Below are positions 5,811-35,680 of a stretch of DNA of 35,680 nucleotides, piece after piece. How positions within the stretch are numbered: the first letter of the stretch is position 1; every line of letters begins with the position of its first letter. Origin of the DNA: Acidobacteriota bacterium. Its GTDB lineage: Bacteria; Acidobacteriota; CAIWXX01. The translations under genes were made by a program, and so were the position numbers. The stretch is from positions 1-35,680 of the forward strand of contig JACPPM010000264.1 in the NCBI GenBank assembly GCA_016191015.1. The letters are read 5' to 3'. Under the pieces are notes generated by a model, which was not told where the DNA came from, made no database searches, and saw nothing but the letters and a program-made list of their open reading frames with translations.

Positions 5811-6270
5811 TCCGGCGGTTCCCGCTGCCCAGCTGACGTCGCGACGCCGACTGCTGAACGTCCTGCTCGGCAGCAGTTTCCTCTCGTGGATGGCCGTCCT
5901 GTTGTACCCCGTGCTCAGGTACTTGAAACCGCCGGCCGAAGCCGGCGGCGGCTCGGAGATGACGCTGAGCGATGCGGATCGTACGAAGGTGGTCCAGAAT
6001 GGGTTCAGCATTGTGCGACTGGGCACCGATCGCATCATCGTTTTCCAGGATGCAGCAAAGACGATCCACGCGCTCCAGGCCAAATGCACCCACGAGGGGT
6101 GCACGGTTACGTACAAGGCCGACGAGGGGCTCGTCTGGTGTGCCTGCCATAACGGCAAGTTCGCGCTGGACGGGCGCGTGATCTCGGGACCGCCACCTCG
6201 GCCGCTCGCCGCCTACTCCGTGCGTGGAGACGTGGCGAACCAGATCACCATCGGCCGACAGGGAGCTTGA
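5797..6270 (+). CDS. Rieske iron-sulfur subunit of a cytochrome bc/b6-type complex
   Basis: A 157-residue membrane-anchored [2Fe-2S] protein. The N-terminus has a twin-arginine type motif (SRRRLLN, 15-21) followed by a hydrophobic anchor (about 22-42), as expected for Tat-exported Rieske proteins. Cluster motifs are complete: CTHEGC (C97, H99, C102) and CACHNG (C115, C117, H118). C97/H99 and C115/H118 should ligate the cluster, and C102-C117 should form the stabilising disulfide. ATG 5797 is six bases after GGAGG; an in-frame ATG at 5791 abuts the binding site and is less likely. The cytochrome b gene begins two bases after the stop, so the two almost certainly form one quinol-oxidising complex. 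Confidence 0.93.
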   Translation: METPDPAVPAAQLTSRRRLLNVLLGSSFLSWMAVLLYPVLRYLKPPAEAGGGSEMTLSDADRTKVVQNGFSIVRLGTDRIIVFQDAAKTIHALQAKCTHEGCTVTYKADEGLVWCACHNGKFALDGRVISGPPPRPLAAYSVRGDVANQITIGRQGA

Positions 6271-6272
6271 TC

Positions 6273-9200
6273 ATGGCAGAAGCACCACATCGGCCGTTCC
6301 GTGCATCGATTCTCGAAAAGCCCTGGCGGTGGCTCGACGAGCGTTATCACCTCGATGACGTCGTGGATTTCGTTCGCCACAAAGAGATCCCCATCGGCGG
6401 TCACGCCGTGATTTGGTACTACTTCGGTGGCATCGCGCTCTTCTTCTTCACCGTCCAGATCGTCACCGGCATCCTCCTGCTCATGTACTACGAAGCCGGC
6501 GAGAATACATCCTATGAATCCATGAAATTCCTCGTGGGCAAGGTCCCCTTCGGCTGGCTCATTCGATCCATTCACTGCTGGTCCGCGCACCTCATGGTGA
6601 TCGCGGTCCTCGTCCACATGTTCAGCGTCTTTTTTCTGAGGTCTTATCGCAAGCCACGTGAGCTGACCTGGATGACCGGATTCGGTCTGTTGGGGCTGGT
6701 CCTCACCTTCGGCTTCTCCGGCTACCTGCTCCCGTGGAACGAGCTCAGCTACTTCGCGACTGCCGTGGGCACCGACTCCATGAAGTCTATCCCGTATGTC
6801 GGCGAATGGTTGCTCGAAGTCCTCCGAGGCGGCAAAGAGGTGTCGATCCGCACCCTTCACCGCTTCTTCGCGCTGCACGTCTGCGCCCTCCCAATCGCGA
6901 CCTTCGGCCTCGTCGCCTTCCATATGGTCCTCGTCCAGAGGCAGGGAATGGCAGCTCCGGAGGCTCACGATGATACTGCCGCATCGAAACTGGGCGCCAT
7001 GCGTTTCTTCCCGAACTTCGCGATGCGCGACGTGCTGCTCTGGGTGCTCTGCATGAACATCCTCGCCATCCTCGCCGTCTGGCTTCCCCACGGCCCCGGA
7101 ATCCCGGGAATGGAATGGAACATCGGCGACAAGGCCGACCCGCTCAAGCCGGCCTATCCCGGCATCAAGCCCGAGTGGTACTTCCTCTGGGTCTACCAGA
7201 TGCTCAAGGAGTTCCCGGCGCACATCCTTGGCATGGAGGGACCTCAGGCCTGCATGTTCATCGCCTCGCTCCTCATGGCGGCATGGCTCCTTGTTCCTGT
7301 CTTGAATCGCAGCTCGCAGCGCGGAAGGAAGAGCCCTGCATTCGAAGATTTCGGCGTCGCAGTCGTGCTGTTTCTCGCGTTCCTGACGCTCAAGGCGTGG
7401 GACCTCGGCGTCCACGTGCCGCACGGCGAGGATCCTGCCGCGAAGCCCGAGCTGGTGCAGATCATCAACCGGAACTCAGCAGGTGTCATCATGTTGCTCG
7501 GTCTCGGGATCACCGTTTTGCGGCGCATGTGGTACGGAGCCAGCCACTTTGCCTTCACCGCGATCGCTCTGCTGCAGGCAATCCTGCACGGCTTCGTGGG
7601 ACTCTCGTATCTGGCCGCGAGCGGCGCATGCACACTCCTGTTCGGGGTCGCCGTGGCCTTTCACGCGCGCCGCGCGAGGCGCGAGCGACTCGCCGCTGCC
7701 TGCCTCCTCGGTTGCCTCCTCTTCTCCCGACCATCCGCAGCGCAGGAGCCGCAGGCGGCAGCCCAAGCAGGGAATCAGATGCCTGTGGAGAAGTGGCCCG
7801 AGGACTTCCGGAAGCTGTTTGATGCGAACGAGAACGGGAAGCCGATCGTGCCACCTGAGGCGCAGGCCTTTTTCCGGAGGCTGCCCGGTCACGCACAGAC
7901 TCTCTTTTTTTCCGGCGTAGAATCCGGTCTGCTTTCCTCGCCGGCCCAGCTCGCCAGCCTGCTCTCTCTCGACCTCGACGACCGCAAGATCGAGCTGCTT
8001 CTCTCGGACAACTGCGTGCTCTGCCACACCAACCCGGACATGCAGAGCGACGAAACGCTCTTCCGTCTGCGGGACGGCGATCCGGTGGAGCGCGAGAAAG
8101 ACCCCTACCGGCACCTGGACGTGCGCGAGATCGTCTCCGACGTCCACTTCCGCCAGGGCTTGATGTGCGCTGGGTGCCACGGTGGATCACCGGCTGGCAC
8201 CGAGATGGATGACGAAATCTATGAGCGCTGGCCCGAGGCGTCCAAGCGCAAGGCCGACAGGACCTGGGTCCCGGAGTTTTGCACAGTGCGCTGCCACGCA
8301 AACGCGGAATTCATGCAGCGGTTCAACCCGTCCTTGCCGGTGGACCAGATGCTCAAGTACCGCGAGAGCCACCACGGGCGACTCCTGCTGGGCAAGAAAG
8401 ACTCCAAGGCGGCGCAGTGCGTCAGTTGCCACGGCGTCCATGGAATTCGCAGCCCCGAGAGCCCGGTCTCCTCAGTGAACGCGGCCAACATCCCGGCGAC
8501 CTGCGGGAAGTGTCACGCCGATCCTCAGTACATGTCAGGCTACACGCTGAGCGACGGCACCACCCCCATCCCGACCGACCAGCTTGAGAAATACCGAAAG
8601 AGCGTGCACGGACTCGCTCTGCTTCAGAAGCACGACATGGGCGCCCCCGCCTGCAACGATTGCCATGGCAACCATGCGGCACTGCCGCCGGAAGTCGGGC
8701 ACATCGCGCAGGTCTGCCGCACGTGCCACGTTGTCAATGGAACCCTGTTCGACGGGAGCCCCCACAAGAAGGCCTTCATCGCGCACCGGTGGCCCGAATG
8801 CGAGACGTGCCATGGCAAACACGACATCAAGAAGACCAACGACGAGATGCTGGCCGTCGCTCAGCCCACCAGCATCTGCGATCCGTGCCACCGCGACTAT
8901 GGCAAGCCCCTCTGCACGGAGACCACCGCGCTCTTCTACAACAGCATCACGCAGGTGCGAGAGGCGGGTGAGGAGATCGAGCGGGCGGCGGGTGAGCTAG
9001 CCGAGATGGGCCTGGAAGTGGACGACTTGCGATTCGGCGTGAGTGGACTGCGCGACTCGCTGCTGCAGTCCAGATCGCTCATCCATTCTTTCAGCCGGAC
9101 CGACTTCTCAAAACCGTACGAAACGGGCATGAAAACCGCCGCTGAGCTGCGCGCGGAGGTCGATCGGATGAGGGGTGAGTACAGCTTTCGTCGCAACTGG

Positions 9201-9305
9201 CTGATCGTCTCCACCCTCTTCATCACGCTGTTTGCAGTTCTCCTCTATATGCGGATCAGACTCGCAGACAAACAGGGGGGGTACAGGCCGCCGGGCGCGG
9301 CATAG
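6273..9305 (+). CDS. Cytochrome b (b6 + subunit IV) fused to a nine-site multihaem cytochrome c
   Basis: A 1010-residue fusion. Residues 1-225 are the cytochrome b N-terminal domain with haem ligands H101/H115 and H202/H217; the 15-residue step of the second pair is b6-like. Residues 245-465 are the C-terminal domain with the quinol-site PEWY motif at 300-303 and further membrane helices. Residues 472-491 (basic RARRER, then a hydrophobic run ending PSAAQE) look like a retained signal peptide. The periplasmic part (492-970) has eight CxxCH sites, at C581, C632, C716, C744, C794, C815, C843 and C869, plus one CxxxCH at C670. A helical region and a C-terminal anchor (about 976-992) follow. ATG 6273 is seven bases after AGGGAG. 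It probably passes electrons from quinol via the haem wire to a periplasmic acceptor; no separate cytochrome c1 is seen. Confidence 0.93.
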   Translation: MAEAPHRPFRASILEKPWRWLDERYHLDDVVDFVRHKEIPIGGHAVIWYYFGGIALFFFTVQIVTGILLLMYYEAGENTSYESMKFLVGKVPFGWLIRSIHCWSAHLMVIAVLVHMFSVFFLRSYRKPRELTWMTGFGLLGLVLTFGFSGYLLPWNELSYFATAVGTDSMKSIPYVGEWLLEVLRGGKEVSIRTLHRFFALHVCALPIATFGLVAFHMVLVQRQGMAAPEAHDDTAASKLGAMRFFPNFAMRDVLLWVLCMNILAILAVWLPHGPGIPGMEWNIGDKADPLKPAYPGIKPEWYFLWVYQMLKEFPAHILGMEGPQACMFIASLLMAAWLLVPVLNRSSQRGRKSPAFEDFGVAVVLFLAFLTLKAWDLGVHVPHGEDPAAKPELVQIINRNSAGVIMLLGLGITVLRRMWYGASHFAFTAIALLQAILHGFVGLSYLAASGACTLLFGVAVAFHARRARRERLAAACLLGCLLFSRPSAAQEPQAAAQAGNQMPVEKWPEDFRKLFDANENGKPIVPPEAQAFFRRLPGHAQTLFFSGVESGLLSSPAQLASLLSLDLDDRKIELLLSDNCVLCHTNPDMQSDETLFRLRDGDPVEREKDPYRHLDVREIVSDVHFRQGLMCAGCHGGSPAGTEMDDEIYERWPEASKRKADRTWVPEFCTVRCHANAEFMQRFNPSLPVDQMLKYRESHHGRLLLGKKDSKAAQCVSCHGVHGIRSPESPVSSVNAANIPATCGKCHADPQYMSGYTLSDGTTPIPTDQLEKYRKSVHGLALLQKHDMGAPACNDCHGNHAALPPEVGHIAQVCRTCHVVNGTLFDGSPHKKAFIAHRWPECETCHGKHDIKKTNDEMLAVAQPTSICDPCHRDYGKPLCTETTALFYNSITQVREAGEEIERAAGELAEMGLEVDDLRFGVSGLRDSLLQSRSLIHSFSRTDFSKPYETGMKTAAELRAEVDRMRGEYSFRRNWLIVSTLFITLFAVLLYMRIRLADKQGGYRPPGAA

Positions 9306-9312
9306 CCGTCCC

Positions 9313-9396
9313 GAGTTCAAAGTTCAAAGTTCAAAGTTGAAGAGCCGAGGTCATCTCACGGGTCTGTCATGACCCGGAATCTTGATCTTTGAACTC
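9313..9396. repeat. TTCAAAG inverted-array element A (3' of cytochrome gene)
   Basis: Begins eight bases after the cytochrome stop codon. The left arm is GAGTTCAAAG followed by further TTCAAAG units; the right arm CTTTGAACTC (9387-9396) is its exact reverse complement over ten bases. Nested between them is a second hairpin, CGGGTC (9359-9364) with GACCCG (9371-9376). There is no following T-run. It could act as a transcription terminator or message-stabilising structure. Related elements are at 13426 and 20168. The rest of 9397-9528 shows nothing recognisable. Confidence 0.8.
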
Positions 9397-11470: not shown

Positions 11471-12922
11471 ATGGAACTGGATACGAGAGCTTGTTATGAA
11501 GCGCTGCGAAGCCGTGATCCGCGGTTCGACGGCCGATTCTTCACAGGTGTATTGACGACCGGCATTTATTGCCGCCCGATCTGTCCGGCCGTGACGCCGC
11601 GGTTTGAGAATGTCCGGTTCTTCGCCTGCGCGGCTGCGGCCGAGGAGAACGGGTTCCGGCCGTGCAAGCGCTGCCGTCCGGAAACCGCCCCCGGCACGCC
11701 GCCCTGGGCGGGGACATCGACGACCGTGAAACGCGCGCTGCGCCTCATCGCCGAGGGCGGTCTGGATGACGGAGGTGTCGATGTATTGGCTGCGAAGCTG
11801 GGCATCGGAGCCCGCCACTTGCGCCGGCTGTTCCATGAGGAGTTGGGAGCGTCACCCTTGTCCGTAGCCGAAACGCATCGCATCCACTTTGCCCGGAAGC
11901 TGCTCGACTCTACCGATTGGCCGGTCGGCCGCCTCGCGCTGCTCTCAGGCTTCGGGAGTGTCCGCCGATTCAACGACGCGATCCGGAATACATTTGGTCT
12001 CCCACCGACTCGATTGCGGAGGATGAGCGAGGGGGTTGGTCCGACGAAATCCCCGCGGCTTCGGATCCCCTACGTGCCACCGTACGACTGGGATGCTCTT
12101 CTCGACTGGTTCGAAGTGCGCGCCGTCCCAGGCCTCGAATTGGTCCGCGACGGCGCCTATCGGCGTACGTTCGAATTGGCGGGGGCGCGCGGGATACTCG
12201 AGGTGCGCCACGATCCGCGCTCGAAGTGTCTGGAGGTACTCCTCCCGGCACAGGTTACCGCAAGCCTGATCCCGCTCGCCGAGAAGGTCCGGCGGCAATT
12301 CGATTGCAGCTCGGTGCCCCAGCAGATCGCCACGCACCTGCGGCGCGATCCCCTCCTGGCACCGCTCGTGTCCCGGCGGCCTGGTCTGCGCGTGCCTGGG
12401 GCGTTCTGCCCCTTCGAGCTCGCAGTGCGCGCAATCCTCGGACAACAGGTATCCGTCCGCGGCGCGCGGACGTTCGCGGAGCGATTGGTGCAGATTTTTG
12501 GCGATCCCATGCCGGGAGATACGGCCGGGCTCACCCATGTGTTCCCGGACCCAAGCAGGCTGATGCAGGCGGACCTGAGCCGGATCGGCATCACGCGCGC
12601 CCGAGCATCGACGATCCGCGCGGTTGCCGCGGCATTCTGCGACGGCCGGATCGATCTTTCTCAGAATACGGAGCTGGACGGATTCGTCGGCCGTCTTGCT
12701 GCAATCCCGGGTGTGGGCCCGTGGACGGCCCACTACATCGCCATGAGGGGCGCTGGTGAGCCGGATGCGTTCCCATCCGGCGACCTGTGGTTGCGGCGGG
12801 CAGCATCAACGACGACAAATCCACTGAAATCCCGGGAGCTCGAATCCCGGTCCGCTGCGTGGCGGCCGTGGCGCGCATACGCGGCAATGCATTTGTGGCT
12901 CAAGACGGAGGTAAGGAAATGA
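11471..12922 (+). CDS. alkA: Ada-type regulator fused to AlkA 3-methyladenine DNA glycosylase
   Basis: A 483-residue alkylation-repair fusion. Residues 1-75 are an Ada N-terminal zinc domain with all four cysteines: C34 and C38 in YCRPICPA, C65 and C68 in PCKRC. One of these (C34 by alignment) is the methyl-phosphotriester acceptor in Ada. Residues 85-185 are an AraC-type DNA-binding domain (GIGARHLRRLFHEELG). Residues 195-300 correspond to the AlkA N-terminal domain. Residues 310-483 are the HhH-GPD glycosylase, with hairpin AIPGVGPWTAHYIAMR (411-426) and catalytic Asp at D438 (PSGDLWLRR). It should sense methylated backbone, activate transcription and excise alkylated bases. Its stop overlaps the methyltransferase start. 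Such Ada-AlkA fusions are known in other phyla. Confidence 0.93.
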   Translation: MELDTRACYEALRSRDPRFDGRFFTGVLTTGIYCRPICPAVTPRFENVRFFACAAAAEENGFRPCKRCRPETAPGTPPWAGTSTTVKRALRLIAEGGLDDGGVDVLAAKLGIGARHLRRLFHEELGASPLSVAETHRIHFARKLLDSTDWPVGRLALLSGFGSVRRFNDAIRNTFGLPPTRLRRMSEGVGPTKSPRLRIPYVPPYDWDALLDWFEVRAVPGLELVRDGAYRRTFELAGARGILEVRHDPRSKCLEVLLPAQVTASLIPLAEKVRRQFDCSSVPQQIATHLRRDPLLAPLVSRRPGLRVPGAFCPFELAVRAILGQQVSVRGARTFAERLVQIFGDPMPGDTAGLTHVFPDPSRLMQADLSRIGITRARASTIRAVAAAFCDGRIDLSQNTELDGFVGRLAAIPGVGPWTAHYIAMRGAGEPDAFPSGDLWLRRAASTTTNPLKSRELESRSAAWRPWRAYAAMHLWLKTEVRK

Positions 12923-13419
12923 TGATGCACATCGACCATTGTGAATCCCCGATCGGCCGCTTGGTTCTTGCGGCCGGCGATCACGGCCTGGTCGCGCTCG
13001 AATTCGAGGACCACTGGGACGTGGCTCGAAAGCGGCTCGAGCACCGGTTCGGCACTGTAAGCAACGGGCAGCCTCTCGTGGAGACCAGAGCGAAGCTTGA
13101 GGCGTATTTTGCCGGCGAGGTGACGGCGCTGGACGAGGTGGCCGTTGATCCACAGGGAACGCCGTTTCAGCTTCGCGTGTGGAAAGCATTGCGCGCAATC
13201 CCGGCGGGCAGAACCGCCTCGTACGGCAACATCGCGCGGTCACTCGGTCTCCCCGCTGGCGCCTCGCGCGCGATCGGCGCCGCCAACGGGAGCAACCCGG
13301 TCGCAATCGTGATTCCGTGTCATCGCGTGATCCGCAGCGACGGCGCCCTCAGCGGGTACGGCGGCGGAGTCGAGAGGAAGCGATGGCTGCTCCAGCACGA
13401 AGGCGCGATCCTGCTTTAG
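12919..13419 (+). CDS. ogt: Methylated-DNA--protein-cysteine S-methyltransferase
   Basis: A 166-residue suicide methyltransferase removing methyl groups from O6-methylguanine. The active site is IPCHRVI with acceptor C134; the DNA-binding helix is GASRAIGAANGSNP (114-127). The start is the first of three ATG codons, at 12919, seven bases after GGAGG. This ATG overlaps the TGA of the Ada-AlkA gene (ATGA), so translation is coupled and the pair forms a compact alkylation-repair operon. An in-frame extension upstream inside the glycosylase gene is ignored because it lacks a binding site. The fused upstream protein has only the Ada N-domain, so this gene supplies the C-terminal Ada activity separately. 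Confidence 0.95.
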   Translation: MMMHIDHCESPIGRLVLAAGDHGLVALEFEDHWDVARKRLEHRFGTVSNGQPLVETRAKLEAYFAGEVTALDEVAVDPQGTPFQLRVWKALRAIPAGRTASYGNIARSLGLPAGASRAIGAANGSNPVAIVIPCHRVIRSDGALSGYGGGVERKRWLLQHEGAILL

Positions 13420-13425
13420 TGGTTT

Positions 13426-13520
13426 CGAGTTCAAAGTTAAAAGTTCAAAGTTCAAAAGCGTCAAGCGAGCCTCCGAGTGGTCTTGAACTTTGAACTTTGA
13501 ACTTGGACCTTTGAGCTCGA
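13426..13520. repeat. TTCAAAG inverted-array element B (3' of ogt)
   Basis: Begins seven bases after the ogt stop. The left array (13426-13458) contains CGAGTTCAAAG and further AGTTCAAAG units. The right array (13481-13520) reads TTGAACTTTGAACTTTGAAC and ends TTTGAGCTCG, near the reverse complement of the left edge. A 22-base spacer separates the arms, allowing a long imperfect hairpin. It may end the repair operon transcript. Confidence 0.85.
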
Positions 13521-13629: not shown

Positions 13630-14728
13630 ATGCTGGAGGAACTGAAGGACAAGCATACTGGGCAGAAGAAGCTGCTCGAAGAGCTCCGGGGTTTTCTTTG
13701 AGATCGAACACAAGCGGGATGAGATTGCGGCGATCGATCACCGGATGTCCGACCCGGGCGCGTGGAGCAATCAGGAGCTGCTCAAGGAGCTGAACCGGAG
13801 CAAGAAGCGGCTGGCCGGTACGACCGAGAGGTTTGGTCATCTCGAACGCAGTATTTCGGATGCGGGCGCGCTGCTGGAGCTGTTGGAGGAAGGGGAGGCG
13901 TCGGTCGAACCGGAGTTTCGAGGGCTGCTGAAGGCGATCGAGGCGGACGCGGAGAAGCTGAGGCTCGAGGCGCTCTTCTCCGACGAAGCCGATGCCAAAG
14001 ACGCCTACCTCGAGATCAACTCAGGTGCGGGCGGAACCGATGCGCAGGATTGGGCTCAGATGCTGCTACGTATGTACCTGCGGTTCTGCGACAAGGAGGG
14101 GTTCGCGGCGACGGTCGTAGACTCGCAACCGGGAGACGAGGCGGGGATCAGGAGCGCCACGGTGAGCATCGAGGGGCCGTACGCCTTTGGATACCTGAAA
14201 GAGGAAGTGGGTGTGCACAGGCTCGTCCGCATCTCTCCGTTCGACTCGAATGCGCGGAGGCACACGGCTTTCGCGTCTGTGTTCGCATACCCTCAGGTGG
14301 ACGAGTCGATCAAAGTCGACATCGATCCGAAGGACCTGCGCGTGGACACATATCGCAGCAGCGGCCACGGAGGTCAGCACATCAATGTGACCGATTCCGC
14401 GGTGCGGATCACGCATATCCCGACCAACACTGTGGTGTCGTGCCAGAACGAACGGAGTCAGATTCGGAATCGCGACTTGGCGATGCGCGTTCTGATGGCG
14501 CGTTTGGTGGAGCTCGAGCGGGGAAAGCAGCTCAAGAAGAAGCAGGAGATCGAGGACGCGAAGAAGGACATCGGCTGGGGCAGCCAGATCCGCTCGTATG
14601 TTTTGCACCCCTATCAGATGGTCAAGGACCATCGCACGAAGCTCGAAATCGGTGACGTGAATCGGGTATTGGACGGCGACCTTGAGGAGCTGATCAAGGC
14701 TGCGCTGCATATGAATCGGAAGAAGTAG
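13630..14728 (+). CDS. prfB: Peptide chain release factor 2, made by programmed +1 frameshift
   Basis: Two frames join at an in-frame TGA at 13699-13701. The first encodes 23 residues from ATG 13630 (AAGG and GGAGG upstream) and ends RGFL; after a +1 shift the second continues EIEHKRDE to 14728, giving 365 residues, the E. coli RF2 length. RF2 hallmarks are present: the stop-recognition SPF tripeptide at 202-204 (RISPFDSNARRHT) and the peptidyl-tRNA hydrolysis motif GGQ at 247-249 (GHGGQHIN). RF2 reads UGA and UAA. As in most bacteria, scarcity of RF2 at the internal UGA favours shifting, so the protein controls its own level. serA follows after 19 bases, probably on the same transcript. A gene call starting at 13745 would lose the first 38 residues. 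Confidence 0.97.
13687..13702 (+). promoter_or_regulatory. prfB: RF2 programmed +1 frameshift site
   Basis: The sequence CGGGGTTTTCTTTGAG contains the canonical slippery CTT followed by TGA (13696-13701). A G-rich Shine-Dalgarno-like CGGGGT lies three bases upstream of CTT, the spacing used in other prfB genes. The ribosome slips from CTT to TTT and continues with GAG. Confidence 0.95.
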
Positions 14729-17250: not shown

Positions 17251-20148
17251 ATGCAGCCGAATCATGCGGACCATTCCCGAACGACGGATAGAAAGGATCT
17301 TCAAAGCCCCGAGGAGCGTCTGCGCGATCTTGTCGAAGACTTGGACGCGATCGTCTGGGAAGCTGAAGCGCCGGAAGACGCACTCGGTGCCAGTGGTGCA
17401 CTGAGGTTTTCGTTCGTCAGCGGGCGGGCTGAGAGCATCCTCGGCTACCCCGTCGGACGGTGGCTCGGTGAACAGGGGCTCTGGCCCTCTGTCGTGCATC
17501 CCGACGACCGGGCGCGAGTGGAGCGCACGTATTCGACCGTTCTGCTGGAGGGACGCTACGGCGGCATCGAGTATCGGGTTGTCGCCGCCGATGGGAGAAC
17601 CGTCTGGATTCGAGACCGCGTCCATGCGGTTCGCTCAGCCGGGACCGGCCGGTTTCGCCTGCACGGGGTCATGATGGACATCAGCGATCGGGTGGAGGCG
17701 GAGAGTGCGCTGAAGAGGGGCGAGGAACGTTACCGCGCATTTGTCGAGCAGAGCACGGAGGGGATCTGGTGCTATGAGGCCGACCAACCGATGCCGGTGG
17801 ATTTCACCGAGGACGAACAGATCGACTATTTTTATGCTCACGGCCGCTTGACCGACTGCAACGCGGTCTTCGCACAGATGTACGGGTTCGACGAACCGGA
17901 GGACGTTATCGGAGCCCGCGTCGGCGATTTGCTCCCCCGTTCCGACCCGCGGAACGAGGAGTACCTGAGAGCTTTTGTTCGGGCCGGATACAGGCTTTCG
18001 GACGTCGAGTCGCATGAGGTGGATCGAGCAGGGGGCTCGAAATATTTTCTGAACAACCTGGTGGGCATCGTCGAAGACGGGCGTCTGGTACGGGCCTGGG
18101 GCACGCAGCGCAACGTCACGCAGAGCAAGCAAGCCGAAGAGGAGATCAGACGGCAGACGGTGTTCTTCCGGGAGCTGTTCAATAGCGCGCCCAATGCGAT
18201 CCTGATTGTGGACATGAATGATCGCATCGTCGACGCGAACCGTGGTTTCGAACGGACGTTTCAGTATTCGGCCGAGGAGGTGCGAGGCCGGCAGGTCAAC
18301 GACTTCATCGTTCCGCCCGATCTGGCCGTCGAAGCCTCCGACCTATCTCGCCAAGCTCTCCGGGGCGATATCGTGCGGAAAGAATCGGTGAGGAAGCGAA
18401 GGGACGGGAGCCTTTTGACGGTTTCCATACTCAGCTATCCGATCATGGTCGATGGCCGGCTGGAGGCCATCTACGCGATTTACAGCGATATTACGGAACG
18501 GACGCGAGTGAACGCGGCATTGCGCGAGGTGGCGGTTGGAGTATCGGCGGGAACCGGCGAGGCTTTTTTCCAGACGCTTGCCCGTCAGCTCACGCGCGCC
18601 CTCGACGCCGATTACGCCGTCATCGCCAGGTTCGCCACGGGATCCGAGGACCGAATCAGATCGCTCGCGGTCTGCAGGCGAGGTGAGATACTCGAGAACA
18701 TAGAGTACGATCTGGTCGGGACGCCTTGCGAGGGTGCGGCGCACGGAGCTCTTTGTTATTACGCGAATGACGTCCAGCGTTTGTTCCCCCGGGACGAGAT
18801 GCTGCGCACGATGTCGGTGGAATCGTACATGGGAGTCCCTCTGTTTGATTCGACTGGACGCGCCTTCGGGCTGATGGCAGTGCTGCACGGCCGGCCGTTG
18901 TCGAATGAGTCGCTCGCGAGATCCATGCTGCAGATCTTCGGGATGCGCGTGGCGGCCGAGCTGGAGAGGACCCAGGCGGAGGAGGCGCTGAGGCGGAGCG
19001 AGGAGCAGCTTCGACACTCGCAGAAGATGGAAGCCGTCGGGAGGCTCGCCGGTGGTATCGCCCATGACTTCAACAACCTCCTCACGGCAATCTCCGGATA
19101 CTCGGAGCTCATCCTTATTCGCATGCCGGCCAGCGACCCGCTGCGTCGACAGGTTGAGGAGATCAGGAAAGCCGGTGAGCGGGCGGCGTCGCTGACGCGA
19201 CAGCTTCTTGCCTTCAGCCGCAAGCAGGTGCTTCAGCCGCGCGTCCTCGACCTCAACGCCGTCGTCATCGAAATGGACAAGATGCTCAGGCGTCTGATTG
19301 GCGAGGATGTCCTCCTGAGCACCATCTTGCAGGACGGGTTGGGCCGGGTGAAAGCCGATCCGAGCCAGCTCGAGCAGGTCATAGTGAACCTGGCCGTCAA
19401 CGCCCGTGACGCGATGCCGCGCGGCGGCCGCCTCGTCATCCAGACTGCCAACATCCATTCCCGGGACGTGCAACCGGCTGAAGTGCCGGAATTGCGGCCA
19501 GGCGAATATGTGATGCTGGCGATCAGCGACAACGGCGTCGGTATGGAGCCCGATGTGCTCGGACGAATGTTCGAGCCCTTCTTCACCACCAAAGAAAAGG
19601 GTAAGGGGACCGGTCTCGGCCTCTCCACGGTTTATGGGATCGTCCGGCAAAGCGACGGGTATATCTCGGTCTCCAGCGCCCCGGGCCTCGGCACGACCTT
19701 CAAGATCTACCTCCCGTACGTCGCCGAGGCAGCGGATGTGCCGGCCGGCGGCGGAACCGAGGTGCAGCGAACCAGAGGAACCGAGACAATCCTGCTCGTC
19801 GAGGACGAAGACGTCGTTCGCAGGATGACCCGGGAGATTCTCGAGGGAGAGGGGTACAAAGTATTGGAAGCGGCCGACGGCCAGGAGGCGCTTCTTATCT
19901 GCGAGAAGTATGAGGGCCCGATTCAGCTTCTGTTGACTGACGTCGTGATGCCCGGATTGAACGGCCATGAGCTCGCCGAGGCTCTCTCCGAGAGCCGGCC
20001 CGGTATCCCGGTGCTCTATATGTCCGGGCATACGGGGGACACGATCATCGGGAAGGGCGCGAGGATCCGTCGCTCGGCATTCCTCCAGAAACCCTTCGTC
20101 CCCCATGCCCTTGCGCACCACGTCAGACAGTTGCTGGATGATCACTGA
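17251..20148 (+). CDS. Cytosolic hybrid sensor histidine kinase (PAS-PAS-PAS-GAF-HisKA-HATPase-REC)
   Basis: A 965-residue hybrid kinase with no membrane segment or signal peptide, so it senses something inside the cell. Residues about 21-150 are a PAS/PAC unit (GYPVGRWLG, then DISDRVEAE). About 155-295 is a second PAS-like unit (YGFDEPEDVIG). About 300-417 is a third PAS with PAC (YSDITERTR). Residues 425-572 are a GAF domain containing several cysteines. HisKA has the phospho-acceptor H605 in GGIAHDFNN; the ATPase domain shows the N-box NLAVNARDAM, the G1 box DNGVGM and the GTGLGL lid. A C-terminal receiver has phospho-acceptor D897 (LLTDVVMPGLNG) and K947 (QKPF). ATG 17251 is preferred; GTG 17248 and 17239 are alternatives. 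No output regulator is adjacent. Confidence 0.93.
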   Translation: MQPNHADHSRTTDRKDLQSPEERLRDLVEDLDAIVWEAEAPEDALGASGALRFSFVSGRAESILGYPVGRWLGEQGLWPSVVHPDDRARVERTYSTVLLEGRYGGIEYRVVAADGRTVWIRDRVHAVRSAGTGRFRLHGVMMDISDRVEAESALKRGEERYRAFVEQSTEGIWCYEADQPMPVDFTEDEQIDYFYAHGRLTDCNAVFAQMYGFDEPEDVIGARVGDLLPRSDPRNEEYLRAFVRAGYRLSDVESHEVDRAGGSKYFLNNLVGIVEDGRLVRAWGTQRNVTQSKQAEEEIRRQTVFFRELFNSAPNAILIVDMNDRIVDANRGFERTFQYSAEEVRGRQVNDFIVPPDLAVEASDLSRQALRGDIVRKESVRKRRDGSLLTVSILSYPIMVDGRLEAIYAIYSDITERTRVNAALREVAVGVSAGTGEAFFQTLARQLTRALDADYAVIARFATGSEDRIRSLAVCRRGEILENIEYDLVGTPCEGAAHGALCYYANDVQRLFPRDEMLRTMSVESYMGVPLFDSTGRAFGLMAVLHGRPLSNESLARSMLQIFGMRVAAELERTQAEEALRRSEEQLRHSQKMEAVGRLAGGIAHDFNNLLTAISGYSELILIRMPASDPLRRQVEEIRKAGERAASLTRQLLAFSRKQVLQPRVLDLNAVVIEMDKMLRRLIGEDVLLSTILQDGLGRVKADPSQLEQVIVNLAVNARDAMPRGGRLVIQTANIHSRDVQPAEVPELRPGEYVMLAISDNGVGMEPDVLGRMFEPFFTTKEKGKGTGLGLSTVYGIVRQSDGYISVSSAPGLGTTFKIYLPYVAEAADVPAGGGTEVQRTRGTETILLVEDEDVVRRMTREILEGEGYKVLEAADGQEALLICEKYEGPIQLLLTDVVMPGLNGHELAEALSESRPGIPVLYMSGHTGDTIIGKGARIRRSAFLQKPFVPHALAHHVRQLLDDH

Positions 20149-20167: not shown

Positions 20168-20253
20168 GAGTTCAAAGTTCAAAGTTCAAAGTTCAACGAT
20201 GGTGGCGGATCCGGACTAGCACTTTGAACTTGCAACTTTGAACTTGGAACTTC
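20168..20253. repeat. TTCAAAG inverted-array element C (3' of the kinase gene)
   Basis: Begins 20 bases after the kinase stop. The left arm (20168-20196) is GAG followed by TTCAAAG units; the right arm (20220-20253) has ACTTTGAACTT units on the same strand, giving an imperfect hairpin with a 23-base spacer. Its right edge is only about 20 bases from the next start codon, so it could terminate the kinase transcript or influence the peptidase gene. Confidence 0.85.
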
Positions 20254-35502: not shown

Positions 35503-35593
35503 CACAAACCTCCTCCCCATCTGTTCATACGCTTCGCGGAGCACCTCGCGTCCCCTCAACTATCGCACAACAACACTTGGCGTGTCATCCTAA

Positions 35594-35634
35594 CGCGGCG
35601 GAGCCGCAACCAAAGAGGTTGCGTCTCCGACGCG
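35594..35634. repeat. Strong 41-base hairpin upstream of the VWFA gene
   Basis: The arms 35594-35611 and 35617-35634 pair at 16 of 18 positions by my count, with two single mismatches, around an AAAGA loop. The inner stem is GCAACC/GGTTGC. No T-run follows on either strand, so it is not a classical terminator. It lies about 90 bases upstream of the VWFA gene start. It may be a REP-like palindrome or the end of a gene beyond the window. Nothing else is recognisable in 35503-35680. Confidence 0.6.
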
Positions 35635-35680
35635 CGTGAGAGCGTGGAGAGTGAGAGCGTTTTTCCGAGCCACCTCGATC

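Follow-up and report, generated by a model that had tools for sequence, protein, structure and literature searches.

TTCAAAG heptamer arrays in an acidobacterial genome lie directly behind stop codons and pair only inward

Introduction

Heptameric tandem repeats occur in excess in many bacterial genomes, and slippage is one proposed source, according to the parts of the two reports on which our comparisons draw (PMC4692102, PMC4679880). The closest described systems are the repeats of Xanthomonas and Nostoc with units GGGAATC and GGGGA(C/T)T; in the portion of that report used here, these are G-rich heptamers that lie close behind stop codons on the coding strand, prefer four units and are rare between divergent genes (Rehm et al. 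2015, PMC4692102). The arrays described below have the unit TTCAAAG and were noticed in a 35,680 nt stretch of DNA from an Acidobacteriota bacterium (the window). A full-text search with TTCAAAGTTCAAAG, GTTCAAAGTTC and three longer forms, whose scope leaves out most subscription papers, returned no report of a TTCAAAG repeat.

Results

Three inverted arrays in the window

The inverted TTCAAAG arrays that had been reported at three sites in the window are real. Their common left edge, GAGTTCAAAG, starts at 9313, 13427 and 20168 (the original prediction gave 9313, 13426 and 20168), and the stop codons before them have their last base at 9305, 13419 and 20148, giving distances of 7, 7 and 19 nt, as the claimed offset of 7–19 nt requires. 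Tandem TTCAAAG units, a variable spacer and a reverse-complement array are present in all three as described, the right arm of element 1 being degenerate (Table 1), and the claim that the arms and not the spacers are conserved also stands: the three window spacers differ and, genome-wide, arms are common and spacers mostly unrelated. The window contains 14 matches to the 14-mer TTCAAAGTTCAAAG at ≤2 mismatches, and because 100 shuffles gave a mean of 0.10 and a maximum of 1, chance is excluded. Folded as RNA, all three elements are more stable than their shuffles, whichever strand is taken (z −3.7 to −6.7). Rfam at its gathering threshold gave no match in the window, and among five element-bearing stretches it found RNase P only, which is unrelated to the arrays. 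By profile match, the family model of the methyltransferase-like gene upstream of element 2 is reached in full (171/171, at 210/210 aa), and that of the CckA-like kinase upstream of element 3 ends (868/868) at 963/965 aa.

Table 1. Arrays in the window and the genes 5' of them.
Feature	Position	Strand	Remarks
Element 1 left arm, TTCAAAG array	9314..9338	+	GAG edge from 9313; 7-8 nt past stop codon 9303-9305
Element 1 spacer	9339..9381	.	43 nt
Element 1 right arm, degenerate CTTTGAA array, TTGATCTTTGAACT	9382..9395	-	short, 14 nt
Gene 5' of element 1	6267..9305	+	cytochrome b domain, then part rich in CxxCH motifs; stop TAG 9303-9305
Element 2 left arm, TTCAAAG array	13428..13456	+	8 nt past stop codon 13417-13419
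Element 2 spacer	13457..13482	.	26 nt
Element 2 right arm, CTTTGAA array	13483..13514	-	
Gene 5' of element 2	12787..13419	+	methylated-DNA-protein cysteine methyltransferase family; C-terminus full
Element 3 left arm, TTCAAAG array, four perfect units	20169..20196	+	20 nt past stop codon 20146-20148
Element 3 spacer	20197..20220	.	24 nt
Element 3 right arm, CTTTGAA array	20221..20252	-	
Gene 5' of element 3	17251..20148	+	PAS-domain histidine kinase / response regulator, CckA-like by profile; C-terminus full

Other features of the window include a protein that matches TIGR03436 (acidobacterial VWFA), a family that would point to Acidobacteriota, and an unusual fusion at 6267–9305, where a single frame joins a cytochrome b domain (residues 17–378) to a long multi-CxxCH part. 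In prfB (release factor 2; 13630–13760), 22 codons from the ATG at 13630 end ...CTT TGA within ggggttttctttgag, a site that resembles the RF2 programmed +1 frameshift site, and the model match of the long prfB frame (13745–14728) begins only at model position 31.

A family of four-unit arrays

The source genome (G000; a 6.43 Mb assembly in 349 contigs) contains 182 matches to the 14-mer (82 + 100), and the reversed control has 7 (5 + 2). We analysed a sample of 60 stretches plus the window, 920,487 bases that hold 139 of the 182 matches; 46 stretches (L031–L076) were chosen for containing matches and 14 contigs were picked by number, and these latter (164 kb) have no 14-mer. A scripted search of this 0.92 Mb found 78 clusters with 115 arms. 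Written with + for TTCAAAG and − for CTTTGAA, they comprise 31 '+-', one '++--', one '++-', 25 '-', 19 '+', one '++' and no '-+', so that all 33 paired clusters point inward. Arms have a median length of 29 nt (IQR 26–33), or about four units, with few one- or two-unit precursors, and the spacers of the 31 simple pairs measure 18–43 nt (17 pairs) or 83–225 nt (14 pairs). Exact short tandem runs of period 4–12 in the sample are dominated by this family: period 7 accounts for 93 of 109, and the unit AAAGTTC alone for 73. These are heptameric intergenic repeats, as just two of 87 period-7 AAAGTTC arrays lie inside called genes. Each unit contains a single G and a single C, and the edges of the clusters listed read AGTT...AACT.

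A second dispersed repeat of ~300 bp, unrelated to the heptamer arrays, was seen at window 35560–35680, L063:12155–12475, L051:18352–18618 and many other places. It is intergenic (one of 90 profile matches is within a called gene), partly self-complementary and often at contig ends (49 of 90 matches are ≤130 bp from a stretch end), and it sometimes adjoins a heptamer array (L067:9621, L049:7496).

Placement and strand at stop codons

Genes were called with a home-made codon-usage script that missed the window methyltransferase gene plus one or two more. Its stop calls are robust. Its start calls are not, because TGA occurs in every frame of the right arm, and we therefore draw nothing from distances to starts. 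With three of the 115 arms at stretch ends, 112 could be scored. The outer side faces a same-strand stop in 72 of these (≤10 nt away in 50) and a start in the other 40 (≤10 nt away in six). When each cluster was placed at random within its own gap, the expected number of stop-facing edges ≤10 nt from the stop was 22.7 (maximum 31 over 2000 placements); 47 of 64 were observed. The bias is strongest for single arms (19/25 against 3.6 expected, maximum 9), and clusters in convergent gaps, with 18/25 against 14.4 expected (maximum 19), do not reach significance in this permutation. At least one coding-strand arm that starts −4 to 15 nt from a stop is present in 47 of 78 clusters. Among gaps of ≥25 nt, clusters occupy 47 of 329 codirectional, 15 of 65 convergent and 4 of 71 divergent ones. 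The motif search for stop distance and strand bias that accompanied the original prediction was thus run on this 0.92 Mb sample, and the bias to gene 3' ends that it had proposed in place of random insertion holds there, not in the window alone.

The chief rival to a functional explanation is that the arrays are passive simple-sequence repeats, made by slippage or copied, that do nothing and survive where they are harmless, past stops and before the next promoter. The general abundance of heptamers in bacteria and the slippage proposed for them (above) favour it. However, mere tolerance predicts arrays anywhere in the gap, and 26 of 65 arms start between −2 and +1 nt relative to the stop codon; nor does it predict a four-unit mode with few short precursors, inward-only pairs, or the strand bias, which among arms that start −4 to 15 nt from a stop is 54 with TTCAAAG on the coding strand to 2 with CTTTGAA. 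We regard such passivity as a serious possibility, though one that is probably wrong.

The same strand bias, the strong stop bias of single arms and the constant arm length would also suit a strand-specific binding site, in which the coding-strand array, as RNA or as an A+T-rich patch of DNA, would be bound by a protein and any hairpin would be secondary. A translational regulator has been proposed for the TAACTGA repeats of other bacteria, in the part of that report used here (PMC4679880). We consider a binding site quite unlikely, and evidence against it comes from a second genome (below).

The stop codons are native

From a list of 42 genes with an array flush against their end, 11 proteins were scanned against family models. 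The models reach or nearly reach the C-terminus in WcaJ (472/472), PfpI (177/179), Lon (782/790), M19 peptidase (389/393) and ClpB (848/865); those for the remaining scanned proteins are weak, internal or absent and tell little. In well-modelled genes, the stops behind which the arrays sit are native ones that end essentially full-length proteins. An element that supplies a stop codon by inserting into a gene was considered and dropped, since no arm contains a stop codon beyond −4 nt, although for arms at −1 and −2 the initial bases of the array complete the stop.

The relative G001 has no 14-mer, and a 0.71 Mb sample of it has no period-7 run. Four gaps are syntenic between the two genomes. 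The stops of the CheA-like and ClpB genes fall at the same codon in both, with the array of the source genome 0–2 nt behind and G001 array-less, and the ends of the Lon and L066 genes show no close alignment. In L054, six bases separate the end of the right arm from a TTGACC/TATA-like sequence, which has an aligned counterpart in G001. Arrays that come and go between relatives, and an arm that stops just short of a conserved promoter-like sequence, are what passive repeats would show.

One element or two tags

In the nine convergent gaps that contain a pair, gap length minus the arms has a median of 100 nt, against 97 nt for element-free convergent gaps (p = 0.74), and subtraction of the spacer as well leaves a median of 8 nt (p = 0.0007). 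The spacer therefore looks like old intergenic DNA, with each gene end carrying its own tag, and convergent gaps look as if each stop had gained an arm. In the 21 paired codirectional gaps, what remains is larger than element-free gaps under both subtractions (p = 0.03 and 0.00006).

Alternatively, the arms might be terminal inverted repeats of a non-autonomous, MITE-like mobile element that inserts beside stop codons. Related spacers in different gene contexts point in this direction: those at L041:91–277 and L066:10132–10327 are 73% identical over 197 nt, and a third, at L066:11322–, shares 48 nt at 92%. The L066:10113–10364 element, which has the look of a single 250-nt unit, starts at a stop codon and creates a gap of 289 nt between genes that stand close together in G001. 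However, nearly all other spacers are unrelated to one another, single arms have no second end, and there is no target-site duplication (mean 1.42 against 1.36, p = 0.42, 33 pairs). The five Y1_Tnp matches genome-wide, three of them over the cut-off, have no array in their 2.6–3.3 kb loci. We judge mobility improbable as a general account; nonetheless, both origins may occur, because the L041 and L066 spacers are related and L066:10113–10364 resembles a single unit. The lack of similarity among most spacers also led us to set aside the spacer as a conserved RNA or MITE core, and three related spacers with no duplication do not amount to the common internal sequence and target-site duplication by which MITEs are recognised.

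Hairpins and terminators

Intrinsic (Rho-independent) terminators are inverted repeats behind stop codons that can serve both strands. The TTCAAAG arrays differ from them in their A/U-rich stem, in having no U-tract (2.2 T per 10 nt past the 3' arm) and in often consisting of one arm only. A canonical terminator, among the functions first suggested, is not supported: a G+C-rich stem with a T-run occurs at one of 63 array-bearing gene ends and at 1.8 in shuffles, against 20 of 305 other gene ends (8.6 in shuffles).

The 17 short-spacer pairs are predicted to fold strongly (−29.9 to −48.9 kcal/mol, z −4.6 to −13.8). Not every cluster can form a hairpin, since about half of the clusters are single arms without a partner within 300 nt; among 44 single-arm clusters a clear partner was found only for three wide pairs (six arms), 269–308 nt away. 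Paired arms share nine variants against 6.5 expected (p = 0.16), so these pairs lack the co-variation that a selected hairpin might show, a result that again suits passive repeats. An array flush with a stop lies under the terminating ribosome, which should delay folding.

Distribution and a second genome with the same layout

Four of 396 genomes of the phylum contain the 21-mer: G000 (125 matches), G359 (10), G074 (3) and G182 (1). Such patchiness also fits passive repeats. In G359 several arrays lie within open frames and not behind stops, and TTCAAAG is not special in the phylum relative to its reversed form, as outside G000 the 21-mer has 14 matches in three genomes and its reversed control 20 in six. 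Matches occur in many phyla, in at least 116 stretches across genome contigs and, among the matches listed, in cyanobacteria, Bacteroidota, Verrucomicrobiota, Chlorobi, Patescibacteria and others. In 80 of these loci, for which crude ORFs were used, the stop bias is weak: the outer side is within 12 nt of a stop in 14 of 69 arms and within 12 nt of a start in 11, and 33 of 110 arms are inside ORFs. In the cyanobacterium Hydrococcus sp. Prado102 (L091, L119, L134, L136, L157, L168) the heptamer array belongs to a longer dispersed repeat whose flanks are shared (GTGATTAGAGTTCAAAG...).

Genome G196, from another family of the phylum, has 40 matches to AAGTTTCAAGTTTC, with unit AAGTTTC. A 0.36 Mb sample chosen around these matches contains 29 clusters, and all 18 that hold both strands point inward. 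At stops, 21 arms have the unit on the coding strand and one does not, and 22 of 26 stop-facing edges are within 10 nt (15.6 expected, maximum 20 of 2000). A unit-blind scan for periods 5–11 found 122 tandem arrays. Period 7 accounts for 113, which use at least a dozen units and of which 36 are at stops, and small families tend to keep one strand. Inverted pairs beyond the main unit number six in one canonical-unit orientation and one in the other. With AAGTTTC and further heptamers in the same layout, it seems to matter more how the arrays are laid out than which letters they use, and G196 is the strongest evidence hinting that layout rather than sequence is kept. The many different units argue against one sequence-specific binder.

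The further G196 families (L345, L340, L351 and others) include GCCGATT, GTCAGTT, GCTGAGT, GGTCTTT, ATTTGCC and others, with about four units each and many of them located behind stops, and GTCAGTT is similar to the published TAACTGA repeat.

Layout that is kept while units change could also mean a stop-codon tag independent of the unit. Some process, perhaps directed slippage or a telomerase-like templated polymerase, would add a tandem stretch of about 4 × 7 nt, on the coding strand and precisely behind stops; convergent tags would yield the inward pair, lineages and even one genome would use different heptamers for the same job, and period 7, length, strand and place would be conserved but not sequence. 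We consider this unlikely.

Discussion

The TTCAAAG arrays form a family with a set position, strand and array length and with inward-only pairs, and the same layout recurs with another unit in G196. Judging from sequence, our tentative preference, held with somewhat less than even confidence, is to read them as 3'-UTR elements anchored at the stop codon, which when paired would form a hairpin without a U-tract that marks or shields mRNA ends. Transcription would make the arrays the opening part of the 3' UTR, and a complementary array downstream, or that of a converging neighbour gene, would give a long A/U-rich RNA hairpin of the same form on both strands. Such a hairpin might slow RNA polymerase or block 3' exonucleases, and so mark or shield mRNA ends, either for a single gene or for a convergent pair. 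Arrays would be created and altered by 7-nt slippage or by copying, and would be kept beside the stop codon, where neither the protein nor the next promoter is harmed. Single arms might be half-built or decayed versions, or might be read by something that needs no hairpin.

The sharpness of the layout, in which about four interchangeable units lie on the coding strand with their edge at the stop and pairs point inward, turns a vague over-representation of heptamers between bacterial genes into testable predictions. The A/T-rich unit also means that a G-quadruplex is not needed to explain the placement and four-unit preference of the Xanthomonas and Nostoc repeats.

Comparison with known repeats

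REP and REPIN sequences with their RAYT transposases are, in the parts of the reports used here, similarly extragenic, palindromic and of high copy number, and have suspected roles in termination or mRNA stability (PMC2817692, PMC3116915, PMC3733652). The TTCAAAG arrays differ in being tandem heptamers with no conserved non-tandem palindrome and no linked Y1 transposase found. We do not class them as REPs or REPINs: their edges are AGTT...AACT in place of a GTAG or CGTC tag, and no Y1 match is the repeat-flanked, linked RAYT of those systems.

The TAACTGA direct repeats of Beggiatoaceae, cyanobacteria and Bacteroidetes are nearer: as described in the part of that report used here, they too are heptamer arrays, sporadic in several phyla and consistently oriented to genes (MacGregor 2015, PMC4679880). 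Unlike the TTCAAAG arrays, they are mostly upstream of start codons, their unit has stop codons in forward reading, and one of 170 sets is inverted (PMC4679880, same part).

The Xanthomonas and Nostoc units, as far as the part of their report used here describes them (PMC4692102), are G-rich and form G-quadruplexes, which TTCAAAG cannot; lacking G-tracts, it does not belong to their G-rich type. Their edges lie 0–50 nt from the stop, where most TTCAAAG edges are within 10 nt, and inward inverted pairs are a main form of the TTCAAAG arrays. The TTCAAAG arrays are thus a variant of the known intergenic heptamer repeats (compare GGGAATC in Xanthomonas), and what sets them apart is the A/T-rich unit, the edge at the stop itself, inward pairs as a main form, and a layout that one phylum builds from different units.
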